A stretch of 37,846 bases of DNA, taken from positions 1 to 37,846 of the IMG/VR virus record IMGVR_UViG_3300030060_005727. The stretch is one strand, 5' to 3'. Shown here piece after piece: positions 14,828-34,638 of the stretch; within the stretch, counting starts at the first letter, position 1; every line of letters starts with the position of its first letter. A program made the translations under genes and the position numbers. Source of the stretch: a virus. The notes beneath the pieces were generated by a model. The model saw only the letters and a list, made by a program, of their open reading frames with translations, ran no database searches and was not told the DNA's origin.

Positions 14828-17241
14828 TATATCCCTGCCATACTAAGTATTTGTTTCGAACGTTTTTGAGCTTCTTTTGCTGACTCAGGGTCAATTCCTT
14901 GTTTTTGTAAACCACTTAATAAATCTTCTTGAGCAAATTTAGCAGCGTTCTTAGGGTCTTTGAGTATATTTTGTAGTAAAGTTTTATCTTTGTCGTAATT
15001 TTTCTTTCTCTGTAACCAAGGATAACTATAAAGTGCCTGGTCTGAAGCTGGTAAGTCGCTCATAATAGGAATAAAAGTACAATTAGCCTGAAGGTATTTA
15101 GGTGATTTAGTCCACAATGTTTCCCATGTACCATTATCCTGCACGGTATACGTAAGAGCTGAAATATATCCTGGCATCTCTGTATACATTTCTCCTATCG
15201 TTAACTTTGTGAATGGAGCTACCATTGTTCCACTTCTGAAATCAGGATATGTCTGTCCAGCTAAAGCATTCATTTTTGTCCATAAAACGGGTAGTTCTTC
15301 TGCTGACTTTGGATAAATATCAAAAGTAAAACTGATTGTTCTACTCGTCCCGGTGTAAACATAAACTTTATCAGGTCTTCCAATATACTTTTCTTCAGCA
15401 TAATCAGGTGTGAATGAATCCGATATACCACTTAGTATAGCTCTGAATACTATGTAGTTACTATTCATATCAACGAATCTAAATGGAATAAAATCTAATT
15501 CTTCTTCCGTTTTACCTTCAGGTGATTTAGCTGTCTCACGAGGACCATAGGGAATAAGATTTACTCGGTCTCTACGAACATCAGCAAAGGCATCTAAGTC
15601 TTGAGTAACTTGTGAAATTGCTTTTTTAGAACTATCTACAGGCAGTTTATCGATATTAATAACTGGTATAAGTTCTTTTATACCTGCATAGAGTTGTCCT
15701 GCATTTTGAACTAAACCATTTACTCCCGAGAGGTCGAATGAATTTGGACTTCTTCCACTGAATGGATTTTTTACTTTAGGGAATGAAAACTTTTTACCTA
15801 CATTAGGAAGACCTATGTTAATCTTAGGACCTCTCAAATTTTTTAAATATCTTATACCTGCACCTGCTATATTAGATACAGCATCAGCTACAGGAGCTAC
15901 TAAACTCAATAACTTATCAGTAGGGAAGTCTAATTGAGAATCAACCGTTATATTATATTTTCGTTGAAAATCAGGTGAGTTGATATTGATTCCGTTTGGT
16001 GCCCAATTACTTGGAAACTTTTTCAAAACTTCCTTCGGTACACTACCTCCTTGTTCTTCTATTGATAAGTTGTATTTTTCAATAGGAGATTTTATATCAA
16101 ATTGAGTTAATACACCAAGGGTGGGGTCAAAATCTCGATTTATACTTATTTGTAAACTACGTACACCTGGTTGACTTGCTAAAGATAAAGGATTATATTT
16201 CTGTAAATTTACTGCTGTTTTTGCTGCATTACCCGATTCAGAACCGAAACTTCCTCCATTATAACCTTTTCTAAAAACTTTGTTATCAATAGTTCCGAAA
16301 GCTGTATTGTTATTTAAATTACTAGGATAAACACCAGAGATAGGGCCTCTAACCGAACCTAAATTAGCTTCAGGATTACTTCTTTTCAATACTCGTTGTT
16401 TTTCTAAAAATCCTAAACCTTTAGCTGAAGCTAAGAACATTCCCATTCTAAACAAATCAGCTCCTGCTCTATCGACATATACAGAGGGTTGTCTACCTAT
16501 GACGGCTCCCCCTAATTCATCCAAAAAGTTAAATCCTATTCGAAGAATTTGTCCTGCTTTATCAATACCAGTACCCTCTAGCTTACCTGTAAATTTATCT
16601 ACTCCCCAATTATTTCCTATATCTCTAACGACAAATGGTTGTTTGAATCCGAGATTAACAGGTCCTGTACCTCTTGGAGGTCCTTTGATACCTAATGGAC
16701 CACTTCCTTTGAGTTGTGCATAATAATCAGATAAAGGAAAGTTACTGATACGTGGTGGTGGATTGTTGTGTTGTATTTGAATTGGTGTTTGTCGTGAACG
16801 GTCATATTTATCAACTCGTGTTTGAACATATTTTTGTACATTTGTATCAATGGGATTAAAATTTCCTGAACTATCAAGAAAGACGTTATTGGGTATAGCA
16901 TCAGGTACAAAAGCATTAAGAGGTGTAGTTGTTGGTCGTTTTGCAAGTGGAGCTGTAGGTTTGAAGAAACCTATCTCTCTACTAGGTACTTTAGATTTTC
17001 TGAGAGCTTGGGTAGCTGCTTGAAAAGTCCTAGTGTTTTGTGTTTTGATTGATAATCCGATTTCTCGTAGTTTAGCTGATTGTAGTTCAAGTTTACGTTT
17101 AGCGTCAACTCTTTTTTGAGCGTCTAGTTCTGATTGTCTCTTTTGTAGAGCACGTTGTTTACTTGCCTCGATTTGAGGGTCTTTCACACGACGTGAGGCT
17201 CCTGCTCTTGATAAATTTGATTTTTGGTCAACGACACCCAT
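14827..17241 (-). CDS. Baseplate/tail-tube-associated structural protein
   Basis: This 804-residue protein has a basic, glutamine- and lysine-rich coiled N-terminus (about 1-75), a long Pro/Asn/Gly-rich middle of low complexity, and a conserved C-terminal domain from about 570: FIPFRFVDMNSNYIVFRAIL, SDSFTPDYAEEKYIGRPDKVY, YTGTSRTISFTFDIYP, ELPVLWTKMNALAGQTYPDF and APFTKLTIGEMY. I know this C-terminal pattern from many large myovirus baseplate operons, where it is a tail-tube or baseplate component, but I cannot assign it to a T4 gene number. ATG 17241 overlaps the tape-measure-like gene as TAATG. The long flexible middle may thread or tether parts during assembly. Confidence 0.68.
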   Translation of the reverse strand: MGVVDQKSNLSRAGASRRVKDPQIEASKQRALQKRQSELDAQKRVDAKRKLELQSAKLREIGLSIKTQNTRTFQAATQALRKSKVPSREIGFFKPTAPLAKRPTTTPLNAFVPDAIPNNVFLDSSGNFNPIDTNVQKYVQTRVDKYDRSRQTPIQIQHNNPPPRISNFPLSDYYAQLKGSGPLGIKGPPRGTGPVNLGFKQPFVVRDIGNNWGVDKFTGKLEGTGIDKAGQILRIGFNFLDELGGAVIGRQPSVYVDRAGADLFRMGMFLASAKGLGFLEKQRVLKRSNPEANLGSVRGPISGVYPSNLNNNTAFGTIDNKVFRKGYNGGSFGSESGNAAKTAVNLQKYNPLSLASQPGVRSLQISINRDFDPTLGVLTQFDIKSPIEKYNLSIEEQGGSVPKEVLKKFPSNWAPNGININSPDFQRKYNITVDSQLDFPTDKLLSLVAPVADAVSNIAGAGIRYLKNLRGPKINIGLPNVGKKFSFPKVKNPFSGRSPNSFDLSGVNGLVQNAGQLYAGIKELIPVINIDKLPVDSSKKAISQVTQDLDAFADVRRDRVNLIPYGPRETAKSPEGKTEEELDFIPFRFVDMNSNYIVFRAILSGISDSFTPDYAEEKYIGRPDKVYVYTGTSRTISFTFDIYPKSAEELPVLWTKMNALAGQTYPDFRSGTMVAPFTKLTIGEMYTEMPGYISALTYTVQDNGTWETLWTKSPKYLQANCTFIPIMSDLPASDQALYSYPWLQRKKNYDKDKTLLQNILKDPKNAAKFAQEDLLSGLQKQGIDPESAKEAQKRSKQILSMAGI

Positions 17242-18473
17242 TAGTCTAATTTCCTAAATCCACTTCTAAGTATGGAGTTTGTTTCTTCTGTCAATCCAAT
17301 CATAGGATTAGTTCCTTCTCCTCCTGCTGCTGCTCCAGCTGTATTGTTTCTCACAAGTCTTGATAATTGTTCCACATTCACACCAACACTATCTGCTAAA
17401 GCTTTTCTCTGTATAACATTCATTTTATTAAACTCTACCTCACCACCTACTTGTTTCAATATCTCTCTCATCACGCCTTCTTGGTCACCTGTTATGGCTA
17501 ATTGACGAGCTTTATCAAGATTGATTTGTCTTCCTAGTAATAAAGAGGCCTGTAATTGATTCTCTATACTTGATTCAAAATTCAATAATGATTCTGAAAT
17601 ACTTTCAACAGCACCTAACTCTAATCCTAACTTTCTAGCTGCTATACCAGCATTCACTATGTTCATTCCCCCATCTTTAGCAAATTGAGCGAAAAACTGA
17701 GCGTTCTCAGCTATGTCTTGCATCACGAGAGCTGGAGCTACACCTGCTTGACCTGCTAAAGCAGCATTTGTTTGTATTTGATTCAACAATACATCTCTAC
17801 TTGCAGATGAAACTGATTCCATCACAGAAAGTGTTCTTGATAATTGAGATGCTGTTTGACCGGTTGAGGCTGCTGTCCTTGCAAAATTTAAACTAAGTTC
17901 TACTGATTCTTGTACACTAGCACCTAAATCTTGTCTTATAGCGGCTTGAGCTGCTGTAACATCCTCTATAGATAATCCGAAACCTTTAGCGACTTGAGCT
18001 AAAACTTTATTTTGAGCAGTTATAGCTACAGCTTGTGTATACGAGACACCTAATTCTTTTCTTGTATCAGCAACTGCTTTTTGTATTGATAAGAATGCCT
18101 TTACAGCTGCACCAACTGCAACGACAACACCACCCATACCACCTAATAACGTATCAACTGCACTTGCTGTTCTACCTGCATTGGCCGACATACTAGCGAA
18201 TCCTGGAGCTATTTCTGCAATTGCTTCGGCTTGCTCTCCTTGCAACCCTGCAATCTTTTGTAAATTTTTAAGCTCTTTATCTGATATTTTACCTTTTTTC
18301 TCAGCCTCTTGTCTAATATTAGCGATGATTTTAGCCTGGTCACCAAAAGCACCAGTTGCTGAGGCGAGTAAAGGGCCCATATTTTTTATGGTGTCCTGTA
18401 ACTCTTTTGCAGCATCTTTTGCATCTAAAAAATTCTGGGTACGGAATTTACCAGTATCAGCGTCTCTTGGCAT
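17241..18473 (-). CDS. Probable tail tape-measure protein
   Basis: The 410-residue product is alanine- and glutamine-rich and almost entirely helical, with one strongly hydrophobic glycine-rich segment (TLLGGMGGVVVAVGAAVKAF, about 108-127). Repeated QAxAI/AA motifs (QAVAITAQNK, DVTAAQAAIRQDL) and the end of the protein (KALADSVGVNVEQLSRLVRN) resemble phage tape-measure proteins, which set tail length and are ejected with DNA. It is short for a tape measure (T4 gp29 has 590), so part of the role may lie in the 804-residue neighbour. AAGGA precedes ATG 18473. The place between the gp26-like chaperone and baseplate genes is the expected one for a tape measure. Confidence 0.68.
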   Translation of the reverse strand: MPRDADTGKFRTQNFLDAKDAAKELQDTIKNMGPLLASATGAFGDQAKIIANIRQEAEKKGKISDKELKNLQKIAGLQGEQAEAIAEIAPGFASMSANAGRTASAVDTLLGGMGGVVVAVGAAVKAFLSIQKAVADTRKELGVSYTQAVAITAQNKVLAQVAKGFGLSIEDVTAAQAAIRQDLGASVQESVELSLNFARTAASTGQTASQLSRTLSVMESVSSASRDVLLNQIQTNAALAGQAGVAPALVMQDIAENAQFFAQFAKDGGMNIVNAGIAARKLGLELGAVESISESLLNFESSIENQLQASLLLGRQINLDKARQLAITGDQEGVMREILKQVGGEVEFNKMNVIQRKALADSVGVNVEQLSRLVRNNTAGAAAGGEGTNPMIGLTEETNSILRSGFRKLD

Positions 18474-18817: not shown

Positions 18818-19027
18818 TTACTTTTTAACTGGTATATTATGTTTATTGAGTTGTTTTTGTAAGTCTTCTGCTTCTTTTTTATAGAAGGTTTGAAGTCGTT
18901 TCAGATAAAACGTACGAAGATATATGGGTAGTTGGTAAGCTTCCTTAAAAGTGAAACCACCTCTGGAATGTAGTATTAGTTGAAATATTTCTTCGTGAAT
19001 ACGAAGTTTATATTCAGGCGGAAGGCC
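18818..19027 (-). CDS. Frameshift extension of the gp26-like tail chaperone
   Basis: A protein-like reading frame of 69 codons follows the T7 tract of the gp26-like gene and ends at TAA 18818-18820. It encodes GLPPEYKLRIHEE, then LHSRGGFTFKEAYQLPIYLR and a charged helix ending NIPVKK. It has no ATG, GTG or TTG between the preceding in-frame stop and the tract, so it is not an independent gene. Skipping one T (19028) joins it to the 246-residue protein and gives a product of about 311 residues. Tail-assembly chaperones of many phages are made in exactly this two-length way (lambda G/GT, Mu). An alternative is a homopolymer sequencing error, in which case there is just one long gene. Confidence 0.72.
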   Translation of the reverse strand, partial: GLPPEYKLRIHEEIFQLILHSRGGFTFKEAYQLPIYLRTFYLKRLQTFYKKEAEDLQKQLNKHNIPVKK

Positions 19028-19754
19028 AAAAAAATCGTACGGTTACAGGAACCGTAATCACCTGTTCCTTTCCAGTTGAATCTGTTATTGTGGCACTCAT
19101 ATCAATATCAGGTGTGATTGATGATAAGTATTTTCTAAATTCTAACGAATCAACTGATAAAAATTCATTCTCTACAAAATTATTTATATAAGATGGCTCT
19201 GATTTACCATCAACTGAAAGTATCATGTGTTTTAATCTTGTAGTGAGTTCAGAACTTTGTTCTTTTGAGATTTTTGTTCTTGCTTTTGTTTCTTCATCAA
19301 TTTGTTTCTCATCATTACCCGTCAATAATTTAAAAGTTATCTCTCTTTCAGAGTTAGGTAACGTGTATTCGAATTGATTCTTACCTTTAGGGAATTTAGA
19401 AAAATCTAAATCAACAGGTTCAAGTTTTGTTAAGTCTACTGAGTGTTCTGTATCATCATACGTAAACTCATAGTCTTTACCATAACCAAGAATACGAGCT
19501 GCTACCATTATAGCGTTCTTATCACCAATCAACATATCATCAACTTTGACTGATTTATCTATAATCAAAGATTGTAATAGTTTTTCGATAACCGTACCTT
19601 GTTGTATTAGATTTTGAGAAGTAAGAATATCTTCTTCTTTAGCTGTCATGTATTTTATCTCTACTTTACCAGAGGATAAAGGATGACCTTGCACATAGAA
19701 ATGTCCCTGAGACGGTAAATCAACGATTTCCGTAGGGAATTTGAAATCTGTCAT
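19014..19754 (-). CDS. gp26-like baseplate-hub/tail assembly chaperone
   Basis: This 246-residue product resembles the T4 gp26 baseplate family: FPTEIVDLPSQGHFY, HPLSSGKVEIKYMTAKEEDI, LIQQGTVIEKLLQSLI and DKNAIMVAARILGYGKDYEF. In T4 this family helps assemble the baseplate hub and is not abundant in the virion. The last in-frame residues RFFWPSA run across TTTTTTT and stop at TGA 19014. A +1 shift on that tract reads on for 69 codons. AAGGA precedes ATG 19754; TATAAT-like sequences and a 12-base palindrome (TTATAATTATAA, 19787-19798) lie 33-44 bases upstream and may be promoter parts. It sits between tail tube and tape-measure genes, the canonical site of frameshifted tail chaperones. Confidence 0.82.
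   Translation of the reverse strand: MTDFKFPTEIVDLPSQGHFYVQGHPLSSGKVEIKYMTAKEEDILTSQNLIQQGTVIEKLLQSLIIDKSVKVDDMLIGDKNAIMVAARILGYGKDYEFTYDDTEHSVDLTKLEPVDLDFSKFPKGKNQFEYTLPNSEREITFKLLTGNDEKQIDEETKARTKISKEQSSELTTRLKHMILSVDGKSEPSYINNFVENEFLSVDSLEFRKYLSSITPDIDMSATITDSTGKEQVITVPVTVRFFWPSA
19028..19034 (-). promoter_or_regulatory. T7 slippery tract, probable programmed frameshift site
   Basis: On the coding strand the codons CGA TTT TTT TGG cover 19037-19026. Seven consecutive T's let a P-site TTT re-pair perfectly after moving +1 (or -2), which enters the 69-codon downstream frame. The zero-frame TGA follows three codons after TGG. A -1 shift would stop after about 15 codons, so it does not fit. 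Confidence 0.65.
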
Positions 19755-19985: not shown

Positions 19986-20471
19986 TTAGAATTGTAAGAT
20001 TGCGTAATCGTATTTAAGTGTTAATGTAATTTCAGCTGGGTCACTTGTAGCGTAATCCAATTCACCGAAATTAGCATTTTCAATGTACGTACCCTTTAAT
20101 GTCCATTCTTCAACTTTATCACCTACTGGACCTAATAAATTAAAGGTCACGTCTTTTTTGTAAAAATCTGAGTAACCATCACGACCTGTTACGGATTCAT
20201 GTGATGTTCGTATCCATTCCATGACTGCTTGAGCTGCTGAAGGTACAACCGGGTCGTACAACATAATATCGATAGGTTGCCATGCCCCTTTACCTTTAAT
20301 ATATCTTTTGACATTGATGTGGTCTAATACAATCTCTTCAAATTGTATCTGTGGTCTATTTGCAGCTTTTATTAAATAAGCAGGTACACCTTCAATATAC
20401 ATAATGAACCGATTTTTTGTCTTCGGTTCAAATGGTGTAAACATAATTTCTGAAGGGTCTAATGTAGCCAT
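19986..20471 (-). CDS. 19: Tail tube protein (gp19 family)
   Basis: The 161-residue product matches T4 gp19 in length (163) and pattern: KTKNRFIMYIEGVPAYLIKA, RPQIQFEEIVLDHINVKRYI, GKGAWQPIDIMLYDPVVPS, AAQAVMEWIRTSHESVTGR, and an end in ITLTLKYDYAILQF. Hexameric rings of this protein stack to form the rigid inner tube that pierces the envelope. ATG 20471 follows AGGAG at 8-9 bases. The terminator and the recurring AT-rich element upstream separate it from the sheath gene, so the two very abundant proteins may be expressed from partly separate transcripts. Confidence 0.92.
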   Translation of the reverse strand: MATLDPSEIMFTPFEPKTKNRFIMYIEGVPAYLIKAANRPQIQFEEIVLDHINVKRYIKGKGAWQPIDIMLYDPVVPSAAQAVMEWIRTSHESVTGRDGYSDFYKKDVTFNLLGPVGDKVEEWTLKGTYIENANFGELDYATSDPAEITLTLKYDYAILQF

Positions 20472-23490: not shown

Positions 23491-24276
23491 TTACCATATA
23501 CTCCAACCCCCATCTACTACTATGTTTTGTCCTGTTACGTATGATGAAGCTTCAGACGACAGAAATACAGCAGCTCCTGCTACTTCATCTGGTTGTCCTA
23601 CTCTTTTCATTGGAGTTCTTTTACTTAAATCTATTATGTAACCAGGTCTTTCAGGTACACCTGGTGTCTTTTTCGGGAAGTTACCAGGACTAATTGTGTT
23701 GACTCTGATTCCCTTCGACCCGTACTCTGTAGCTAATCTTTTCGTCATTTGTAGGATTCCCCCTTTAGCTACTGAATAAAATATACTACTACTTTTTACT
23801 TCTTGATATAAACTCTGGTCATGTCCTAACAGACCATATATAGAAGAAATATTTATTATTGAACCACTTCCTTGTTTTAACATTTGTGGAATGATAGCTT
23901 GTGTACAGAAAAAACTATGAGATAGAATATTATTGATACCCGAATCCCATTCTTCTTTTGTAATATCTTCTATCGATTTTCTTTCTTCACTAAAAGCATT
24001 ATTAATCAATATATCGATAGTATGTTCGTTTTCTAAAATATCATAGATTCTGTTTTTGACTTGTGTAGGATTTGTGACATCACAACGAATAAATGTCAGG
24101 TTACCATCAAAATCTATTTTTTTAGGTCCTCTTCTACCCATGACAAATACTTTAGCTCCAAACGAAGCTAGAGCTTTCGACATCGATAGACCTAAGTGAC
24201 CATAACCTCCCGTGATTATGGCTACTTTATCTTTTAAATCGAATATGTTTTTATATTGTTGTTGTTTTACCATCAT
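23491..24276 (-). CDS. Short-chain dehydrogenase/reductase
   Basis: This 261-residue classical SDR binds NAD(P)H through TGGYGHLG (22-29), has the NNA structural motif (92-94) and the catalytic S145 (INISSIYG) with Y167-x3-K171. [13 protein letters not shown] follows as usual, and the C-terminus [20 protein letters not shown] is standard. The substrate cannot be read; in sugar islands such enzymes often reduce keto-sugars or their precursors. Two adjacent ATGs (24276, 24273) are possible starts; both overlap the end of the thiamine-enzyme gene by over 20 bases, so the two are coupled. It is the last gene of the enzyme island. Confidence 0.87.
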
Positions 24277-25474
24277 AACAACTTTTTCTTTCTACTATCA
24301 TTACTGGTCCCTTTGCCATCTGAGCCTTTTTATAATCTCGTATAACTTCATCAGGTGTCTTAGGTTCAAATATAGGAAAATCAACCATCTCTCTGAATAC
24401 ATTTGTGAAGTCTTGTGAATGTGTGGGACCAGAATAGAAAGGTCCTCCGTCAGCTACAACCGTTCTTAAAATGACAGGAGCTGTAAATTCACCATGTGAT
24501 AATCTTTCTACGTGATTGATGTGATTTCCTATAGCATCAGCTCCAACTAACATAAAATCATGTCTTTCATAATACACAACAGGTTTGATACCTTCAAATG
24601 ACATACCTAAAGCAAGACTACCCATGAGATTTTCAACAACAGGAGTTTCAAGTTTTTTACGTTCAGGTACACCTTCTAGTGTTCCCATAGCATTTCCGAA
24701 ATCACCTCCTACATTATAACCAATAAACATTGTGTTGTCTTTTCCTAATTCTGTCATGGCTTGAGTTACAGCTTCTTTATACGATAAATTTTGTGTTTTG
24801 ATTTCATTAAACTCAGGAAAAGTTTCTTGAGGAAATCTAGGAAAATATTCGTCGTCTGTTCTCATTATTTTTTTCGTTTCTGATAAATCACAGAAATCTT
24901 TTGTACGAGCATGAGGAAAAGGTAACTTGTAGTGATATCTCATAACACAAGACTCAGGCCATTTTTGTATCTTACTTGTTCCCCATCTTGTTTTTTTATT
25001 AGCTATGATTGATTTATCGTTATCTTCTATAACAAACTTACAAGGTAAATCCCAACCCTGAACATATCTGACAGCTTCAGCAAAGTTTCCCGTATCTTCA
25101 GCTCCATCACCTACAAAACACCAAACTTTTTGTTTTGATTTTTTTCGTTTCAAAGCCCAAGCTATTCCTGCGGCTATACCCGGAACACCTCCTACGATAG
25201 CTGAAGCAAAAAAGTTTCGTTCTCTGTCATACATAAACATACTTCGACCATCTAATATCTTTTGTTCTATCTCGTCAGCAGGTAAACCATGTAGAAGAGC
25301 ATGATAATGATTTCTATGTGTAACTAAAACATAATCATCTTTTTCTATATGTGTGAATATATTCAATAGATGATTTTCATTCCCACCACTCAAATGAAAC
25401 AAAAATGGAAGTTTATTGTTATTGTAATGATTTATTATTTTGTTTTCGAAATTTATCAAATCTTGTTTATTCAT
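24251..25474 (-). CDS. Fused alpha/beta thiamine-diphosphate dehydrogenase E1-like enzyme
   Basis: This 407-residue protein joins two halves that are usually separate. Residues 40-200 match E1-alpha: [36 protein letters not shown], and the thiamine-diphosphate motif GDGAEDTGN...N152. Residues 228-395 match the pyrimidine-binding E1-beta domain: [39 protein letters not shown] (E282 the likely activating Glu) and [17 protein letters not shown]. The C-terminal domain of E1-beta/transketolase is absent, making it unusually compact. The likely chemistry is decarboxylation or ketol transfer on a 2-oxo acid or ketose, perhaps to build a branched or extended sugar; the substrate is unknown. GGAG precedes ATG 25474, 1 base after the oxygenase stop. 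Confidence 0.83.
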
Positions 25475-25475
25475 T

Positions 25476-26099
25476 TTATCTCCATGTAGGTCCAGTTACC
25501 CAACCAACTATCGAATACCTTGTTCCCCGTGTAATCGGAGTAACTGAGTGTCTTAAGAATGACGGAAACACTAATAAGGTTCCTTTTTGTCTTACCGTTT
25601 CAATATCAGGTCTACCAGAACCTTCACAATCAGTACGATTTAAAATTAAGTTACAATCATCGTACTCACTAGAATCTGATAATTGTAGTGAGAATGATAT
25701 TTTTCTATGTAAATCTACTTCTTCACCCTCAGGTGATTGAGCTTTGTCACCTGCAAGATACATAACGTCTTGATGTTCAGTATAGAAACCTCCTGAGTTT
25801 GTATCGTATTGCATAAATTGTATATATTCTAAATTAGTGATATCAATATTATTGAACCATTTTTTATTAGCCGCATCAACCGCTGATATTAATTTAGCAA
25901 ATATATCTCTCATTTCCTCGATATAGATATTACAAAGTTTAACTTGTCTAATGTTTGTATCTTTACGACCATCTCTACCACCTCCAACTTTACCTTCTTC
26001 TAAACCATCTTTCAAACCTTTGTTAAGACATTTTAAAGTCAATATATCACATTCTTCAGGTGTGAAATAATTTTCAAAATACGACCACATACTTTTCAT
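25476..26099 (-). CDS. 2-oxoglutarate/Fe(II) dioxygenase, PKHD/P4H type
   Basis: The 207-residue product has the iron ligands H109-x-D111 (FYTEHQDV) and H184 (FLRHSVTPI), plus R194 (TRGTRYSIVGW) to hold 2-oxoglutarate. The N-terminus YFENYFTPEECDIL and the middle HRKISFSLQLSDSSEYDDC are typical of prolyl-hydroxylase-like enzymes. T4-like marine phages often carry one or more such genes. It could hydroxylate a protein (for example the collagen-like fibre repeats) or a small sugar; which one is open. The 5' end lies 7 bases after the alcohol dehydrogenase stop. Confidence 0.87.
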   Translation of the reverse strand: MKSMWSYFENYFTPEECDILTLKCLNKGLKDGLEEGKVGGGRDGRKDTNIRQVKLCNIYIEEMRDIFAKLISAVDAANKKWFNNIDITNLEYIQFMQYDTNSGGFYTEHQDVMYLAGDKAQSPEGEEVDLHRKISFSLQLSDSSEYDDCNLILNRTDCEGSGRPDIETVRQKGTLLVFPSFLRHSVTPITRGTRYSIVGWVTGPTWR

Positions 26100-26106
26100 A
26101 ATAAAC

Positions 26107-27150
26107 CTACATTTCTATTATACATCGACCAGATAATCCTTGTCCTGAACGGACTATATCGAGAGCGTCATTCACTTGATATAAATCTAATCGATTTGTT
26201 ATTAATTTGTCGAGATTGAGTTTTCCTCGTTTATAGAGACTCAAATACCTGTTTATATCGACTGAAGGGTTTGTGAGTCCTCCATCACTATCCATCAAAA
26301 CTTTACCTTTAAAATGTTGTAATACTGAATGTAAAGTTAAATGTTCATTAGGTTTCGGTTGTCCTACCATTATAGTCTTACCACCTCCTGTTGTCATGTC
26401 ACAGGCTTTCTCAATAAGTTCAGTATGACCTGTTGTATCTATAAATACATCAACTCCTGAACTACCTACAATCTTTTTTAAACTTTCACGGACATCCTCT
26501 TGACTTGTATTTATCGTATGTGTTGCTCCAAACTCTCGAGCTAGTTCTAATTTATGGTCATGAATATCTATAGCTATAATAGGATTACCAGACACAAGAG
26601 ATGCTCCTTGTATTACATTGAGACCTACACCCCCCGAACCGAAAACAGCTACTGATTGACCTATTTTTAATTTAGCTTCATTATTGATTATACCTAAACC
26701 AGTTGTAACACTACAACCCATCAAGGCGGCTACATCATATGGAATATCATCATCTATCTTTGTTACTCTGTTTTCAGAAACAATAGCCATCTCATTGAAT
26801 GTAGTGACTAATCCCCCTCCTACCATTTTACCACTACTCTCTGAAACATATTTAGGAAACTCTGATTCTATCCCGTCTCCTTTTCTCCAGTGCATCACTA
26901 CTCTATCACCAGGACTTACCGTTGTTACTCCTTCACCAACTTCGAGTACTTTAGCACCCCCTTCATGTCCGAGTAAACAAGGTAAAAATTCTTTTTTAAT
27001 TTTCACACCTGAAATATGACCTAGTTGAGCTCCACATATACCACTACTTCGTACTTCAACTAAAACTTGTCCAACACTACATTTATGTTGTAAGTAAAGT
27101 TTTTCAACAACTAAAGGTTCATTAAAATTATAAATTACAGCTGCTTTCAT
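26107..27150 (-). CDS. Zinc-dependent alcohol dehydrogenase (MDR family)
   Basis: The start is taken as ATG 27150 (MKAAVIYNFNEPLVVEKLYL), which overlaps the kinase stop as ATGA; a longer frame reaching 27201 would lie inside the kinase gene. The 347-residue product has catalytic-zinc ligands C39 (SSGICGAQLG), GHE at 61-63 and C146 (LMGCSVTTGLG), and a Rossmann motif GSGGVG at 171-176. The lobe with four structural-zinc cysteines is missing (MHWRKGDGIESEFPKYV occupies that place), so only one zinc is expected. It is close to the class III/benzyl alcohol dehydrogenase branch. It likely oxidises or reduces an alcohol/aldehyde in the sugar pathway. Confidence 0.88.
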   Translation of the reverse strand: MKAAVIYNFNEPLVVEKLYLQHKCSVGQVLVEVRSSGICGAQLGHISGVKIKKEFLPCLLGHEGGAKVLEVGEGVTTVSPGDRVVMHWRKGDGIESEFPKYVSESSGKMVGGGLVTTFNEMAIVSENRVTKIDDDIPYDVAALMGCSVTTGLGIINNEAKLKIGQSVAVFGSGGVGLNVIQGASLVSGNPIIAIDIHDHKLELAREFGATHTINTSQEDVRESLKKIVGSSGVDVFIDTTGHTELIEKACDMTTGGGKTIMVGQPKPNEHLTLHSVLQHFKGKVLMDSDGGLTNPSVDINRYLSLYKRGKLNLDKLITNRLDLYQVNDALDIVRSGQGLSGRCIIEM

Positions 27151-27905
27151 TTCTGAGTGACTACCTCCACACCGTGTTTTTGAATGACTTCTACAGAACA
27201 TTCTTGTGCGAACTTTATTGAAGTATCTGGATTATTATTCTTTAAATAGTGTATTGTAAAGGCAGCTAAAAACGTATCACCTGCTCCTGAAACATCTCTT
27301 ACTTCTACTTTTTTGAAAACAGGATAAGTTTTATTTTGAAATCTACAACCTTTACCTCCTAATGTAACTATTAGTTTTGAATCTATACCAGGAAAATTAT
27401 TGTAATAAAGATTATCTAGTAAATGTTTTGTTTTTTCATACTCATATTCATTTAGTTTTATAAAATCAGCTTTCACACACCAGTCATCTAATAATTTATT
27501 AGTTTGTAGGAATGTAGGAGTGTCTGTCTCTAAAATCAGTTTTAAATCTCCAACATTTAGAAATCCCTTATCATAATCAGATATTATTATCCCATCGTAT
27601 CCTTTAAGTTTTTCTTCGTCATGTTCATATTTGTTTTCTACGTAATCGTGTTTATCGACTCTTATTATCATTTGATGAGTTCTATCATCAACGTAACGTA
27701 TTTTTTCTATCGTATTTTTATTTGTGATAATATCACAATCATAACCTAAAGAACGTACGTTAGCTGCTACATTACCTGCCATACCCATATTAGATTTACT
27801 TCTTGTGGGTTGAAAGACAGGAACTGGAGCTTCTGGACACATACGTTCACAAGTACCATATTCGTATGTATCTTTACAACTATCACCTATAACTAATATT
27901 TTCAT
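27147..27905 (-). CDS. PfkB-family sugar kinase, HldE kinase-domain type
   Basis: The 252-residue product resembles the N-terminal kinase domain of HldE/RfaE, which phosphorylates D-glycero-D-manno-heptose 7-phosphate: VIGDSCKDTYEYGTCERMCP, PEAPVPVF, MGMAGNVAANVRSLGYDC and the PfkB signature DVSGAGD at 204-210 with catalytic D210. HldE of Gram-negatives continues into a nucleotidyltransferase domain; here the protein ends after the kinase domain (QKHGVEVVTQK) and is some 60 residues shorter than that domain usually is. Activation of the sugar to an NDP form would need a host enzyme. It overlaps the epimerase gene by 4 bases (ATGA) and the alcohol dehydrogenase by 4. Confidence 0.85.
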   Translation of the reverse strand: MKILVIGDSCKDTYEYGTCERMCPEAPVPVFQPTRSKSNMGMAGNVAANVRSLGYDCDIITNKNTIEKIRYVDDRTHQMIIRVDKHDYVENKYEHDEEKLKGYDGIIISDYDKGFLNVGDLKLILETDTPTFLQTNKLLDDWCVKADFIKLNEYEYEKTKHLLDNLYYNNFPGIDSKLIVTLGGKGCRFQNKTYPVFKKVEVRDVSGAGDTFLAAFTIHYLKNNNPDTSIKFAQECSVEVIQKHGVEVVTQK

Positions 27906-28696
27906 TTTAAAAAATCCTTATAATCTTTAATACCTGATTCTAAATTGTATTCAGGTTCCCAACCTGGCATCCATTTACTTTTATCAGATTGAGTATGATA
28001 TTGATACCAATCAGGTATTTCATACTCTTGTTTATATTCGTAGGGTATTTCCATTAAATCTAAAACATCTTCAAATAATCTAGCTTGTCCACTACCAACT
28101 TCGTAAACACCTGGTTCTACATTATTAAATAGTGGATAAATTGTTGCCCTTACAATATCTTTTATGTAAACAAAATCTCTTTTTGGTTTTTTAGGAAAAA
28201 GTTTAAATTGACCGAGTTTATAAGCCTGATATGCAACTGAAGCCATTTTTCCTTTTCTTTCTTCACCTGGACCATATACGTTAAAGTATCTGAGAGCTAT
28301 GAAATCCATATCAAGAGCTTTTCCATAATCTTCAGCTAATAATTTAGACCATCCATACACATTACTAGGTATACCATCAACACCATCATTAGCTGCTGAT
28401 GATGAATAAATTACTTTTTTATTATATTTTTTAGCTAAATCAAATAACTTTTTACTGAAAATATAATTAGTCATCATCATTGAAGACATATTTTGGTCAC
28501 TTGTGTCTGAGTTAGCTCCTATATGTAGGATAACATCACAATATTTAACCCTAATAGCTAATTCGTTTTCCCAATCAAGTTTTTCAGTAAAATCACGTTC
28601 AATCTTATATATTACATGAATACTATGAACATCTGTTAGTGTTTTCATTACATTACGACCTATAAAACCATCATAACCTGTTAAAAGAACTCTCAT
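27902..28696 (-). CDS. hldD: HldD-like NAD(P)-dependent sugar epimerase
   Basis: This 264-residue extended SDR closely follows HldD, the ADP-glyceromanno-heptose 6-epimerase: TGYDGFIG (6-13) for NAD(P), HIGANSDTSDQN (58-69), NYIFSKKLFDLA, SSSAA (98-102), YGWSK with Y114 and K118, and YFNVYGPGEERKGKMASVA, ending in RDFVYIKDIV. The matches GAxSDT and GxxxERKGxMASV are specific for HldD rather than for GalE or RmlB. It is shorter than E. coli HldD (310), mainly in the C-terminal half. Expected product is the L,D-heptose form of a nucleotide heptose, though the substrate may be a modified sugar. Confidence 0.86.
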   Translation of the reverse strand: MRVLLTGYDGFIGRNVMKTLTDVHSIHVIYKIERDFTEKLDWENELAIRVKYCDVILHIGANSDTSDQNMSSMMMTNYIFSKKLFDLAKKYNKKVIYSSSAANDGVDGIPSNVYGWSKLLAEDYGKALDMDFIALRYFNVYGPGEERKGKMASVAYQAYKLGQFKLFPKKPKRDFVYIKDIVRATIYPLFNNVEPGVYEVGSGQARLFEDVLDLMEIPYEYKQEYEIPDWYQYHTQSDKSKWMPGWEPEYNLESGIKDYKDFLK

Positions 28697-28699
28697 TTA

Positions 28700-29260
28700 T
28701 TACTCCGTATCAAAGAAAAATACTTGTGTTAATCGACCATTTTTTAAATTATCACCAAAATAATCTAAACTTTTATGAAATAATTGTCCATCATAAAGAA
28801 CTAATTTATTATATTCATTCGAAACTTTTTGGACTAATTCCCATCTAAAATACTCTTGACCTTGTGATTCTAATTCTTTTGATTTTTCTTTATCTTGTCT
28901 AGTATTTGTTATTCCACTTTCTCTGTGTTTGTAAAAACCTGTACCTGATGACGGAGGAGCGTCAGGGGTCAAATAACATAAACCAGCCCATGTGTTATTG
29001 GTATCTGCATGAATCCAGGATTTCTCCCAAGCATATGTTATTTGAAATGACCCGTTGACGTCCTCTGAAAAATTACTTATTTTACCTCCGTAAGGAAAAA
29101 TTATATCCTGTATTACATTTTGTATTGATGAATTGATGTAAGGTTCAGTTCTTATCCCAGGATAGTTTCCTTCTTTCGAAAAAGGGAGTGATAAAGCATC
29201 ACGTCTTACATCATCCGGATTTGTATAAAAATTGTTTATTGTAATAATATCTAGGTTCAT
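28700..29260 (-). CDS. 2-oxoglutarate/Fe(II) oxygenase of the DUF6445-like type
   Basis: The 186-residue product starts at ATG 29260 (overlapping the upstream stop as ATGA); a TTG 12 bases earlier is less likely. Iron ligands H84-x-D86 lie in SWIHADTNNTWAGLCYLTPD, with H162 (GQLFHKSLDYF) and R176 (NGRLTQVFFF). SSGTGFYKHRESG is typical of this phage-rich oxygenase family. It differs from the other oxygenase in the island, so two separate hydroxylations or oxidations are implied. Substrate unknown. Its neighbours are the carbamoyltransferase partner gene and the HldD-like epimerase. Confidence 0.82.
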   Translation of the reverse strand: MNLDIITINNFYTNPDDVRRDALSLPFSKEGNYPGIRTEPYINSSIQNVIQDIIFPYGGKISNFSEDVNGSFQITYAWEKSWIHADTNNTWAGLCYLTPDAPPSSGTGFYKHRESGITNTRQDKEKSKELESQGQEYFRWELVQKVSNEYNKLVLYDGQLFHKSLDYFGDNLKNGRLTQVFFFDTE

Positions 29261-30045
29261 ACTATTTTCCAATCTGAAAGTCCTAATATATCTTTAGCTA
29301 TTTCCTCACTTGTTTGATTTAGATAATTACGAGGATTCTTAAAAGAAGCAAATAAATTCGTTGTAGGGTACCTGTTTCCTATTTGTTCAGGTAAATTAGC
29401 CTTATCCATAATATCATAATGTATAGCATGACCAGATAAATTAGCTCCATATTCATCAAAGGCAAAACGACCTATATCGTAACTCGCATAAATATGTCCA
29501 GCTAAATTTTCATTCCAAGAAGCCGTAACTACATAAGGTATAACTCCATCTTGATACTTATCAATTATATAATCTGACTTAGATTGTATAGTTAAATTAC
29601 AATCATGTTTTTTCTGAAACTCTAATGCCACTTGTGCCCATATATCAGCTTCTTCATCATCGCTAGTGTGTAATTTTACTACAACGTTTTCTCCTATCAG
29701 ATTAATTCGTTTTGAAAATATAGTAGAGAATCCGTAATCTGGATTGAACTCTTTCACTTCAACAAGCCAGTCTATATAAAAACTAGCAAAAGCACGTTGA
29801 TAGTGTTGTAGTCCCTTAGGTTGAGCAGGAATGACACCAGATGTTATCCAGTGTATTTCTTGTGATTCAGTTATGTGATTAAACAATACTAAATATTGTT
29901 TTCTACAATCAAAACCTTTATGTTTGTATGTCGTTGATTTTTGACCATGAATTGTCAATGTGGGTCCTTTATAAAATGACAAATTAATATAAGGAGGAAC
30001 ACTCCTTAAAAAACCCCCATCTAATCGTTTTATTTTATTGTTCAT
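29257..30045 (-). CDS. Carbamoyltransferase partner protein B (unknown family)
   Basis: This 262-residue protein is a paralogue of the product of 31123..31863. Both carry a long central domain with Y-rich strands, the shared motifs YDIGRF, LHT(S)D and a C-terminal EE/DE-(I/V)-AKDILGLSDW. I do not recognise a catalytic motif. The ATG at 30045 overlaps the truncated carbamoyltransferase by 11 bases, and each copy follows directly after a carbamoyltransferase, so the two probably act together (partner, acceptor-binding subunit or second enzyme). The paralogues have diverged strongly outside those motifs. No membrane segment or signal peptide is visible. Confidence 0.65.
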   Translation of the reverse strand: MNNKIKRLDGGFLRSVPPYINLSFYKGPTLTIHGQKSTTYKHKGFDCRKQYLVLFNHITESQEIHWITSGVIPAQPKGLQHYQRAFASFYIDWLVEVKEFNPDYGFSTIFSKRINLIGENVVVKLHTSDDEEADIWAQVALEFQKKHDCNLTIQSKSDYIIDKYQDGVIPYVVTASWNENLAGHIYASYDIGRFAFDEYGANLSGHAIHYDIMDKANLPEQIGNRYPTTNLFASFKNPRNYLNQTSEEIAKDILGLSDWKIV

Positions 30046-31123
30046 CAGACCATCCTATTATTGAATCAATTTCTTCTTGTGAATATTTTGTACCCAAAAA
30101 CACATCATTTAATTTTTTCGTTTTCCATTCTCCTAACTCGACTGCTTTTTTTAGAGTAGCTCCTAAAGCAAGTCCTGCATCAGTCATAGCAGGATAAACG
30201 TACATTTCATCCACCCAATCAAGTTCATTAAGTTTTTGATTTAACTTGACATTTGAAAATACACCACCGGCTACTGCTACTTTTGTGTATTCGGGATAAA
30301 CTTTATGTAAATGATTTAAATATTCTTTCATCCTATTTTCTAAAAATAATTGAACATTATAAGCTAAGTTCGCTGCTTTTTGTTCATCATCTCTCGTACC
30401 TCGTATCGGTATGACATTTATATCCTCTAAGTATTCAAATACTAGATGTATACCATAATCAGAAGTAGAAAGTCCTGCAGGAGTAAATGTCATTGTATGT
30501 TCATCGTATTGACATAAAAAATTAAGAGCATTATATATTGTTTCATCATAAACACCATGTCCTGCTAGACCCGTAACTTTACCCTCATCTTTATGTATTC
30601 TCCAACCTAACCAACGTGTTGTGTAAGCGTACATACAAGGTATTGTTGAACTTTTACTAAAAAACATAGTACTTAAATGTTTCATCGTATTGTCTTCTGC
30701 TAAATATAATTTACCATAAGTGTTTTCATGTCCGTATAAATGACCTAATCCTCCCCCATCGTATGAAATTACTAATGTAGGTTCGTTAAATCCTGATGTA
30801 TAGTAAGCTCCATAACAATGAGCATCATGATGATTAACCATGTAAACTTTTTCTTTAGGAACATCATGTTTATCGTTCCAAAATGAAGATACAGCACTTA
30901 CAGGAGTAGCTGTACAAACGTAATCTGCCTCATTCATTTTCATGTTAAATTCGTTTTCGATTCTTTGAATTGATAAATCAGGTAATGCATTTAAATCATC
31001 ACAAACTTTTATACGTTTAGGTCTTTCTTCTTGTATAGCAGATACTATTTTTCCATCTTTAAGTAAAACAGCTCCTGCATCATGACAAGTATTTCCCCCA
31101 TAAACTCCAAATAAACTACTCAT
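30035..31123 (-). CDS. Carbamoyltransferase lacking the C-terminal domain
   Basis: The 362-residue product begins MSSLFGVYGGNTCHDAGAVL at ATG 31123, which overlaps the partner-A stop as TAATG; a TTG start 15 bases earlier coincides with the Shine-Dalgarno region and is rejected. It aligns throughout with residues 1-351 of the full-length copy: QEERPKRIKV, NHHDAHCYGAYYTSG with the metal-binding HHxxH at 98-102, DEGKVTGLAGHG and AGGVFSNVKLNQKLNELDW. It then ends (SIIGWSDEQ) exactly where the second domain starts, so GPRALGARS and the NTSFN block are absent. In TobZ-type enzymes the missing domain makes the carbamoyl-adenylate, so this copy might accept it from the full-length one, or be a regulator or binding protein. 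Confidence 0.85.
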   Translation of the reverse strand: MSSLFGVYGGNTCHDAGAVLLKDGKIVSAIQEERPKRIKVCDDLNALPDLSIQRIENEFNMKMNEADYVCTATPVSAVSSFWNDKHDVPKEKVYMVNHHDAHCYGAYYTSGFNEPTLVISYDGGGLGHLYGHENTYGKLYLAEDNTMKHLSTMFFSKSSTIPCMYAYTTRWLGWRIHKDEGKVTGLAGHGVYDETIYNALNFLCQYDEHTMTFTPAGLSTSDYGIHLVFEYLEDINVIPIRGTRDDEQKAANLAYNVQLFLENRMKEYLNHLHKVYPEYTKVAVAGGVFSNVKLNQKLNELDWVDEMYVYPAMTDAGLALGATLKKAVELGEWKTKKLNDVFLGTKYSQEEIDSIIGWSDEQ

Positions 31124-31863
31124 TAAAATAACTCCCAATCTGACAATCCTAAAATATCTTTAGCAACATCTTCATCACTAAGATTGTTCGGGTCTCTAGG
31201 ATTGAGTCCTGAATAAACCATATTAGTTTCGACAAATCGTTTACCTGCTGGATACGCTTCAGGATACGGATTCGGTATATCAATTTGTTCTTGATTATCA
31301 TCTAACACACTTAGAATATGTCCTGCATCTCTAGGTTGTTCAAATCTTCCTATATCATAAGTTGAATAAACATTCATCATTTCATCTTCCATATCTAAAA
31401 AAGAAATACCAAATTCACGTACAGCTCTTCGTTGTAACTCTTTATTACTCACTGCAAAATTAAGTTGACAATGATGTAGATTTTTATAATCAAAACATAC
31501 TTTTATCCAAGTACACATTTGTTCCCAATCATCGGTGTGTAACCTTATTTGAACGTCTTTATTATAATCACTATATTGATGATAATCAACAACTTGAAAT
31601 CCGTATTCAGGACTCCATGTGCTAGTTGTTAAGACCCAAGGTACGTAAAATGAAAACATTTGAGAGCCGTACCAACCAGGAGGGTTTATACTACGACTCA
31701 TCATAGTATTCATTTGATTTCTTTTCTTATCTAATATACTAAAATCTATTTTTAAAAACATATCATATGGTGTTTCAGACGTACTACCATGAATATCTAT
31801 TTTAGGTGTAGAATTAAAAGTATAAATAAAGTAAAGATTACGAACTGACAGATTACTCAACAT
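31123..31863 (-). CDS. Carbamoyltransferase partner protein A (unknown family)
   Basis: The 246-residue product starts at ATG 31863 (MLSNLSVRNLYFIYTF), inside the end of the full-length carbamoyltransferase gene. It shares with partner B the segments YDIGRF, LHTDDWEQ and EDVAKDILGLSDW at the C-terminus. The N-terminal half is aromatic-rich (PPGWYGSQMFSFYVPWVLTT). No catalytic motif is recognisable, so its role is unknown; the fixed order behind each carbamoyltransferase argues for a joint function. It is coupled on both sides by short overlaps. A different TTG start 9 bases upstream is possible. Confidence 0.65.
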   Translation of the reverse strand: MLSNLSVRNLYFIYTFNSTPKIDIHGSTSETPYDMFLKIDFSILDKKRNQMNTMMSRSINPPGWYGSQMFSFYVPWVLTTSTWSPEYGFQVVDYHQYSDYNKDVQIRLHTDDWEQMCTWIKVCFDYKNLHHCQLNFAVSNKELQRRAVREFGISFLDMEDEMMNVYSTYDIGRFEQPRDAGHILSVLDDNQEQIDIPNPYPEAYPAGKRFVETNMVYSGLNPRDPNNLSDEDVAKDILGLSDWELF

Positions 31864-33487
31864 AGTAAACAAAATCCTCCATTACTAAATAATCTACAAC
31901 TCCGTCCACTAAGTGTTTGATAGCCTGGTCAGGTCCATCTATTATAGGTTCTCCATGTACATTGAATGATGTATTAAGAAGAACCGGTATGTTTGAAAGT
32001 TTTTCATATTCAACAAGTACTTCGTAAAAAGGATTGTAATCGAATACCAATTGAGGTCTAGCACTCTTATCAACTTTATGAACAACAGCAGGTATTTTAT
32101 CTATCCATTCTTCTCTTGTATCGTAACACATTGTCATAAATTCAGCTGTGTAATGTGATTTATTATTAGTGACAAATATTTCATTTGCTTTTTCTCCTAG
32201 AACTATCGGAGCAAAAGGCATTACTTCATTTCTTCCTAATCTCTTATTTAATTTTTCGTGAGTTTCAGCATCTGTCGGTCTTACTAATACACTTCTCGCT
32301 CCTAATGCTCTAGGACCAAATTCAAATCTTCCTTTGAACCAACCGATAATGTTCCCATCATTAAGATAACTAGCAACTGATTTCATATCAGCCTTGACTC
32401 GTTTAATTTTTTTATTATCCATTGTAACTCCTTGTATTATATCATCAATATAATCTTGACTAAATTTACTACCATAAAATAGATGTTTAAATCTTTTAGA
32501 TTTCCATTCTCCTAATTCAACTGCTTTAGCTAAAACACTTCCTAAAGCATTACCTGCATCATTCATAGCAGGATATATATAAGTCTCGTCAATCCAATCT
32601 AATTCATTTATTCTCTGATTCAATTTAACATTAGCAAAAACACCTCCTGCTAAAGCTACTTTTTTATATTCAGGATATAACTCATTCATGTGATTTAAAT
32701 ATTCAATAAATTTATTTTCTAAAAAATATTGCATATTAAATGCTAAATCAGCTCTTGACTTTTCATCATCTAAGTTTAAAACTTTGTTAAAAATAAGACT
32801 ATTTAAAACATGATTTATTCCTGTAGCACTCTCAGCTTGTGAATTAGGTACAAACTTTTTGATACTTTTATCATACCAACAAATCGTTTCAAATGACTTA
32901 TATATTTCTTCGTTATACTCTCCGTGTCCTGCTAGACCCGTAACTTTACCTTCATCTTTATGAACTATCCAACCTAAATATCTAGTAACAGCAGCATACA
33001 TACAAGGGATACTTGCTGTATAACCCATCGGAAAAGAATTTATCAATGACATTTTACCATTTTCTGCTAAGTATGTTCTACCAAAAGTAGTCTTGTAACC
33101 TTTTGATTTTGAAAGACCTCCAGCATCATAAGAAGCTACAAGTGTTTTTTCATTGAAACCTGATGTATAATAAGCTCCATAACAATGTGACTCATGATGA
33201 TTGACAATAAATATTTTCTCTTTAGGTACAGAATGTTCATACAAGAATTTTGAATCTATTCCCATCGGACTTGCTGTACAAATCCAATCAACATCTTTTA
33301 ATTTAATACCAAATTCTTTTTCGATTCTATGTAAACTTAATATAGGACTTGCATATTGGTCTTTATAAACTTTAACTCGTCTCGGTCTTTCTTCTTGAAT
33401 GACTGATTTAATTTTTCCGTCAACCATGTAAACAGAACAAGCATCGTGAGCACAAGACCCTCCGTATATTCCTATGATTTTACTCAC
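31853..33487 (-). CDS. Full-length carbamoyltransferase (NodU/CmcH/TobZ family)
   Basis: This 544-residue enzyme has both domains. The N-terminal Kae1-like part carries NHHESHCYGAYYTSG with HHxxH at 97-101 for iron, DEGKVTGLAGHGEY and AGGVFANVKLNQ; the C-terminal part carries FEFGPRALGARSVL at 388-401 and VLLNTSFNVHGEPIID at 502-517. Such enzymes use carbamoyl phosphate and ATP to carbamoylate a sugar hydroxyl of an antibiotic, Nod factor or surface glycan. The start is GTG 33487 with AAGGA 6 bases upstream, overlapping the radical-SAM stop as GTGA. In this setting the acceptor may be a heptose or a derivative of it. Confidence 0.92.
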   Translation of the reverse strand: MSKIIGIYGGSCAHDACSVYMVDGKIKSVIQEERPRRVKVYKDQYASPILSLHRIEKEFGIKLKDVDWICTASPMGIDSKFLYEHSVPKEKIFIVNHHESHCYGAYYTSGFNEKTLVASYDAGGLSKSKGYKTTFGRTYLAENGKMSLINSFPMGYTASIPCMYAAVTRYLGWIVHKDEGKVTGLAGHGEYNEEIYKSFETICWYDKSIKKFVPNSQAESATGINHVLNSLIFNKVLNLDDEKSRADLAFNMQYFLENKFIEYLNHMNELYPEYKKVALAGGVFANVKLNQRINELDWIDETYIYPAMNDAGNALGSVLAKAVELGEWKSKRFKHLFYGSKFSQDYIDDIIQGVTMDNKKIKRVKADMKSVASYLNDGNIIGWFKGRFEFGPRALGARSVLVRPTDAETHEKLNKRLGRNEVMPFAPIVLGEKANEIFVTNNKSHYTAEFMTMCYDTREEWIDKIPAVVHKVDKSARPQLVFDYNPFYEVLVEYEKLSNIPVLLNTSFNVHGEPIIDGPDQAIKHLVDGVVDYLVMEDFVYYVE

Positions 33488-34638
33488 GACATTCCTTCAT
33501 CTTGTATTGCTTGCATATCAGTACAAAGTTTACATATAAAATCAGGAGGACTACTTATATAACCATGTCCCATGTACATAAATTCTTTATACTCTTCACT
33601 ATCAAATAACTCTGATATTGTTTGAGTCGATAAGTTACCTAAAATATTTCTTTTCTGCCAATCATTACAACAAACCGTTACACTTCCATCATATAGAACA
33701 TGCAGACCTTTACCATCAAAGAATCTAGCACAAGTAAACTCATTGTCAGGTCCTATCTCTCTTACTTGTTTATTACCTCTCCACTCATCAAACAATCTTA
33801 AATCACCAGCTCTATTTTGAAATAACATAGTGTTCCAACTATATTGACCGTAACCATCGAATAAACTTGATAAATGTTTTCGATAATCTTCAGGTTCATA
33901 AAACCATAAATCAATATTTTCTTTAGTGTAGGAGACTTGTTCCTCCATACTGAATACAGAACTACCATGAGGGTCAGCTCCGTGATATCCCATTATATCA
34001 ATAGGAATAATATTATCTCTTTTGTTATTGTATTCGAGAAGAGACTGAATATTTTTTACTACATCTTCATATTGATATCTACTACCCATGATTTCTTCCC
34101 ACGATTCTTTATCAGTACCTCCGAAATGTACAAGTATACCATAATGTATTCTACCATCATTGAAATCTTCATATTTTAACATCAAATCAATTAATTTTTG
34201 AGAACGTTCTGGTGTTAATAAATTAGCATTTGTAGGAAAATTAATTCTAGTATTAGGTAGTTGTTGATAAAAGTATTCCATTCTTTCTAAAAACTTAGGG
34301 TCGGCTGTCGGTTCATTTCCGTTTTGATAACTATAATGACCTCCAAATCCAGGATAAGTATTTTTAATATCTAAAACTATTTTTTCGTAAAGTTCATCCT
34401 TCATATATCCTGGGTTCATTGTTGTCCATGCATAAGGATAAGGACAATACACACAATTCGAAGTACATACTGAGGTTGTCATGATTGAAACGTATTTTAA
34501 AGGTTCTAATTCTAGTTTTGAATTTTTTATAAAATTTTTCATAGCGTTATTAGCTTTATTTTTTTTCAAAACAGAATCAATACGTTTTTGTAGATTCATA
34601 TCATTTTTTCTAGTATCTTTCAATTTAGACCCTTCCAT
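33484..34638 (-). CDS. Radical-SAM enzyme with SPASM-like C-terminus
   Basis: The 384-residue product has the radical-SAM cluster motif C58-x3-C62-x2-C65 (TTSVCTSNCVYCPYPYAW) that binds a [4Fe-4S] and S-adenosylmethionine. The C-terminus has FTCARFFDGKGLHVLYDGS, VTVCCNDWQKRNILGNL, SELFDSEEYKEF and a final ICKLC, a SPASM-type pattern that binds extra clusters. Enzymes of this type modify peptides, alter sugars (epimerisation, dehydration) or carry out dehydrogenation; the substrate is not readable. The first ATG 34638 overlaps the glycosyltransferase by 19 bases; an ATG at 34599 is a possible alternative start. It probably acts in the same pathway as the glycosyltransferase. Confidence 0.88.
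   Translation of the reverse strand: MEGSKLKDTRKNDMNLQKRIDSVLKKNKANNAMKNFIKNSKLELEPLKYVSIMTTSVCTSNCVYCPYPYAWTTMNPGYMKDELYEKIVLDIKNTYPGFGGHYSYQNGNEPTADPKFLERMEYFYQQLPNTRINFPTNANLLTPERSQKLIDLMLKYEDFNDGRIHYGILVHFGGTDKESWEEIMGSRYQYEDVVKNIQSLLEYNNKRDNIIPIDIMGYHGADPHGSSVFSMEEQVSYTKENIDLWFYEPEDYRKHLSSLFDGYGQYSWNTMLFQNRAGDLRLFDEWRGNKQVREIGPDNEFTCARFFDGKGLHVLYDGSVTVCCNDWQKRNILGNLSTQTISELFDSEEYKEFMYMGHGYISSPPDFICKLCTDMQAIQDEGMS

Follow-up and report, generated by a model that had tools for sequence, protein, structure and literature searches.

The reading frames of the tail chaperone gene

The window, by which we mean the whole 37,846-base stretch of DNA analysed here (IMG/VR virus record IMGVR_UViG_3300030060_005727), carries its tail genes on the minus strand. 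One of them encodes a gp26-like short tail assembly chaperone, TAC-N, and the 3' end of its zero frame reads CGA TTT TTT TGG CCT TCC GCC TGA; the window's site is CGATTTTTTTGGCCT. If one T of the tract of seven is skipped, 69 further codons are open (GLPPEYKLRIHEEIFQLILHSRGGFTFKEAYQLPIYLRTFYLKRLQ...VKK, up to a TAA), the junction reads ...RFFGLPPEYKLRIHEEIFQLILHSRGGFTFKEAYQLPIYLRTFYLKRLQ..., and the N part joined to this extension gives a fusion of 311 amino acids (aa), TAC-NC. Taking the comparative evidence together, we think it very likely that in this marine T4-type phage the locus encodes both tail assembly chaperones from a single start through programmed +1 ribosomal frameshifting. An initial annotation of this DNA had proposed a frameshift on the T tract, and its coordinates, bases and count of 69 codons are all correct (Table 1).

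A scan of the 69 extension codons for ATG, GTG and TTG found none, and the +1 frame is shut upstream by a TAA whose first base lies 11 bases 5' of the T tract. The extension frame is therefore without a plausible start of its own, as the initial annotation had also stated. Mononucleotide shuffles left a frame of the same length and composition open in 0.7% of cases.

Table 1. Features of the tail chaperone locus in the window
Feature	Coordinates	Strand	Remarks
Tail sheath	23091-20608	minus	upstream of the tail tube gene
Tail tube protein	19986..20471	minus	upstream neighbour; PHROG_4542 tail tube, E 4e-27
TAC-N, gp26-like short tail assembly chaperone	19014..19754	minus	zero frame, 246 aa, ATG to TGA
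Putative P-site codon UUU	19034-19032	minus	A (19035) before, U (19031) after
Putative shift site TTTTTTT in CGA TTT TTT TGG CCT	19028..19034	minus	V_UUU_Y
Zero-frame stop TGA	19014..19016	minus	9 bases past the TGG codon; terminates the short product
+1-frame extension (T domain)	18818..19027	minus	69 codons + TAA 18820-18818
90-aa open reading frame	between +1 extension and 410-aa open reading frame	minus	downstream of the extension
410-aa open reading frame, tape measure gene position	17241..18473	minus	identity inferred from position only

The initial annotation had set the gene between those for tail tube and tape measure. By its match to PHROG_4542 the tail tube gene is there, and the tape measure is assigned from position, the family search of the window's proteins having given no tape-measure match for the 410-aa open reading frame (ORF). 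The annotated tape measure comes after the chaperone in Immutovirus and SP-15.

The +1 extension is conserved in homologues

Homologues of the short protein were gathered from annotated phages, IMG/VR and GTDB genomes. With the window included, 193 of them have a gp26-like gene that ends inside the stored sequence, and 189 of the 193 keep the same domain in the same +1 frame. These counts include close relatives; a non-redundant set (n = 159) was built by shared 8-mers, which is still phylogenetically structured, and the z-scores below are not strict probabilities. The extension, here called the T domain, has the conserved pattern FFGL..EYR..YNMP.WLR. Its codons have a median ratio of nonsynonymous to synonymous substitution rates of 0.18 (197 pairs), indicating that the domain is under purifying selection. 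Conservation in homologues is the decisive evidence that the frame is real, and at the level of sequence comparison it confirms the frame. Both frames are conserved, and the T tract itself is not conserved in many relatives.

Cultured phages with this arrangement infect Flavobacterium (Immutovirus), Microcystis (Mel-JY01), Bacillus (SP-15), Listeria (LIS04), Rhodothermus (RM378) and Streptococcus (GXN1), and the long product is absent from the public annotations of these isolates. The comparison thus supports the frameshifted gp26-like chaperone of the initial annotation, which had called a +1 shift unusual for a T4-like gp26. The window is not an isolated case: about 190 relatives keep the arrangement, other T4-type relatives use -1 at the same place, and T4 has separate gp26 and gp51 genes.

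The putative shift site is UUU followed by a pyrimidine

In the 189 homologues with the +1 arrangement, an in-frame UUU is always followed by U or C (UUU_Y), and in 185 of them UUU has a base other than U in front (V_UUU_Y). The sites in the non-redundant set read TTT TTT TGG (110), TTT CTT (21), TTC TTT (10) and a few others. The last upstream +1-frame stop and the first downstream zero-frame stop across the family confine the shift to positions -2..+15 around the first Phe codon (n = 159), if one common shift place is assumed. The window does have the seven T's to which the shift had been attributed, but T7 is not the signal as such: many relatives without such a run (TTT CTT TGG, TTC TTT TGG) keep the same frame and domain, as do those with TTTCTTTGG or TTCTTTTGG, whose T runs are of only three or four. 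What the sites have in common is UUU plus a pyrimidine, mostly with a base other than U in front. In bacteria, UUU_Y slips into the +1 frame with particular ease (Atkins et al., PMC5009743), and the V_UUU_Y motif of the gp26-like family agrees with this published rule.

The base before the site is also far from random. Of the 69 TTTTTT-class members whose preceding codon has C or T as its last base, 1 has T there, when the same genes would predict 53 (z -15). A simple mechanism could explain both flanks of the codon. The majority of ribosomes would terminate at the TGA and release the short TAC-N of 246 aa, and in a minority the peptidyl-tRNA-Phe on the P-site UUU would slip forward by one base and re-pair with UUU or UUC. 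A non-U before UUU would deny the same tRNA a -1 re-pairing, and U or C after it would permit the +1 re-pairing. The shifted ribosomes would continue to TAC-NC, the N part followed by a T domain of 69 residues in three predicted helices. By analogy with lambda G/GT, the short form may coat the tape measure and the long form may recruit tail-tube subunits.

Several observations weigh against this account. Four members (L026, L068, L069 and L077) have T before UUU. The avoidance of T is seen in the TTCTTT class as well, where it is weaker (3 of 8, compared with 6.8 expected), so the blocking of -1 re-pairing may not be the only cause. For the T7 class more than one codon could be the slip codon, and the SP-15/LIS04/GXN1 subgroup offers an alternative slip site, CC_CGA, a short distance further on. 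A conserved stimulatory RNA structure was looked for and not found, since the stretches surrounding the site and following it have folding energies only mildly below those of shuffles (mean z about -1 to -1.4), and position counts returned no upstream Shine-Dalgarno element that was well placed or of conserved spacing. On the protein side, the best solved-structure matches of the N-domain are weak (YqbN, Z 5.2; HK97 gp13 tail assembly chaperone, Z 4.4). These two top matches are, at low Z, both of the chaperone family, YqbN being grouped with tail assembly chaperones (PMC9603447).

A family-wide slip of the RF2-like type, CUU_U at the second codon, was also considered and was rejected, because L108 keeps CTT TGG after TTC yet has lost the +1 frame and has a domain with its own ATG, and because LR756508 has CTA at the second codon.

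Exceptions and alternative explanations

The four homologues that depart from the common arrangement (L103, L108, L153 and L181) fit the expectation that the extension depends on the site and that the domain is otherwise supplied once the site is gone. Two sisters of Immutovirus (Flavobacterium phage immuto relatives) in the tree lack UUU_Y, with TTC TTG TAT in L103 and TTC CTT TGG (TTCCTTTGG) in L108, and in both the T domain is encoded in a different frame, preceded by its own ATG. From base 2501, L153 has a short gp26-like copy and then a second gene with the N and T parts fused in frame, which is the arrangement of T4 gp26/gp51, yet on the +1 side of the tree. A homologue with one uninterrupted gene, which would have spoken for a single frame, was not seen, the in-frame fusion of L153 being the only one and adjoining a separate short copy. 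In L181 the domain is in the -1 frame, probably through a one-base indel. The extension is likewise in the -1 frame in the jumbo-phage relatives L206 (RAS14) and L204 (LR756511), the RAS14 site being AGT TTT TTT ATC.

The initial annotation had left open a -2 shift, as in phage Mu, which would reach the same frame. Such re-pairing is feasible on the U's of the T7 class, and pairs 1 and 2 are kept at 127 of the 159 non-redundant sites. At the other 32, TTT CTT TGG and TTC TTT TGG members among them, -2 re-pairing fails, and yet the frame and the domain are the same; UUU_Y, by comparison, is possible at all 159. Since relatives with TTTCTTTGG or TTCTTTTGG keep the frame and only +1 serves as a single mechanism for the whole family, we regard the -2 shift as improbable. 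These short runs, down to three or four T's, also argue against slippage of RNA polymerase, by which mixed mRNAs would arise and no ribosomal shift would be needed. Runs of T or A can cause it, with seven T's near the lower limit, but the runs of the relatives are too short, and we judge it highly unlikely.

Two further explanations dispense with recoding. One is that a single reading frame has been broken by a homopolymer sequencing error, for which it can be said that T7 runs are error-prone in some chemistries and that the window is a metagenomic virus record. The same offset is found, however, in the cultured and separately sequenced Immutovirus, Mel-JY01, SP-15, LIS04, RM378 and GXN1, and at sites without a long T run, and these relatives refute an error. 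The other holds that the T domain is made independently, as a small protein with a start of its own. This is what L103 and L108, with an ATG in front of the domain, would suggest and what the separate small ORFs annotated in GenBank for Immutovirus, Mel-JY01 and SP-15 imply. Against it stand the window's extension, which lacks ATG, GTG and TTG throughout, and the 88 of 153 relatives with no ATG, GTG or TTG between the site and the core motif, and it leaves the conserved V_UUU_Y and the continuity of the frame through the site unexplained. A separate protein is thus very improbable for this family, and we retain +1 frameshifting.

Relationship to the gp26 chaperones of T4 relatives

The short form matches PHROG_150 'baseplate hub' (E 3e-10), and its structural matches in BFVD are T4-like baseplate hub proteins. 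The N and T parts were modelled separately with AlphaFold2 (AF2). The N-domain model has a mean predicted local distance difference test score (pLDDT) of 91, and the T domain is modelled as three helices with a pLDDT of 89. Structure searches with the T domain returned no significant match.

Homology to known chaperones is seen in profile comparisons, each a single pairwise one with an E-value that holds for that comparison. The profile of the +1 fusion matches that of the -1-shifted chaperone fusions over its full length (99.9%, E 3e-33), and the -1 fusion profile in turn matches T4 gp51 at 99.6%; the direct match of the +1 fusion to T4 gp51 is weaker (89%). When the short form is placed in a tree, a 100/100 branch separates the +1 family from the -1/T4 group. 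RAS14, with its -1 site, is a long branch on the +1 side, and its placement is unsure. The tree holds the duplication of L153 within the +1 side and that of T4 on the other side.

As a rule, long-tailed phages use frameshifting to make their two tail chaperones, and T4 was for long the exception. Its gp26 and gp51 are one chaperone in a short and a long form, as at the window's locus, but they come from two genes and involve no frameshift. According to the PRFect paper (PMC10274946), Vladimirov et al., 2022 found separate short and long genes in T4-like phages, and the Adele paper cites the same work for -1 poly-T signals. The -1-shifting gp26 genes of cyanophages, KVP40 and Aeromonas 65.2 have a homologous fused product, joined at the same place as in the window's family, where the short form ends in Phe-Phe. 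They differ from the window's family in the site, which is T_TTT_TTC, with U before UUU where the window's family has a non-U. Among 80 gp26 relatives of cyanophage Bellamy, T precedes TTT in 77, an open -1 extension is present in 76 and an open +1 extension in none. The -1 heptamer X_XXY_YYZ is not what is found in the window's family, whose extension lies in the +1 frame and in which T precedes TTT in only 4 of 189.

These comparisons make us lean, with some reserve, towards a single homologous chaperone family in which the base before UUU sets the direction of the shift, U giving -1 (as in cyanophages) and non-U giving +1. A single substitution with a matching extension frame could then switch the direction, and duplication would later have replaced frameshifting at least twice, in T4 and in the L153 lineage.

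Frameshifting in tail chaperones is classical (lambda G/GT; PMC5009743). As in the window, a short chaperone and a C-terminal extension in a shifted frame are encoded between tail tube and tape measure; lambda, by contrast, shifts by -1 on a heptamer and not by +1 on V_UUU_Y. Forward shifts in tail chaperones have been put forward as well, as a prediction for the myovirus Moonbeam, an SPO1-like Bacillus phage (PMC4299906), and as a suggestion for the haloarchaeal HSTV-2 (PMC5009743). Both resemble the window in the predicted +1 but belong to other phage groups. The positives in the PRFect training set include 350 forward slippery sites (PMC10274946). UUU with a following pyrimidine is the +1 slip codon in Yersinia YopN-TyeA and in influenza PA-X (PMC5009743), although these are other genes with other functions, PA-X being eukaryotic with the site UCC_UUU_CGU.

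Both tail-chaperone frameshifting and +1 cases were thus already known, and the +1 shift in gp26-type relatives of T4 appears to be new; the literature covered, which did not extend to Vladimirov et al., 2022, contained no report of a +1 shift for gp26 that we could find. The chaperone relatives of T4 would then comprise apparent +1 shifters beside -1 shifters and users of two genes, so that a change in the direction of recoding and its replacement by gene duplication could be tested on one protein family. V_UUU_Y would be a compact natural +1 signal with about 190 variants.

Other genes in the window

Away from the tail genes, a two-gene unit occurs twice in tandem at 29257-33487 on the minus strand. 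The first copy pairs a carbamoyltransferase that has N and C domains (31853-33487) with a 249-aa protein that belongs to no Pfam family. In the second, a carbamoyltransferase with the N domain only (30035-31138), 55% identical to the first, lies next to a 262-aa protein that is related to the 249-aa one (27% identical). A metabolic gene island at 24251-37076, also on the minus strand, includes an E1-type dehydrogenase/transketolase-like gene, a 2OG-Fe(II) oxygenase, a PfkB sugar kinase, a radical SAM/SPASM gene, a glycosyltransferase and a DUF6445 gene.
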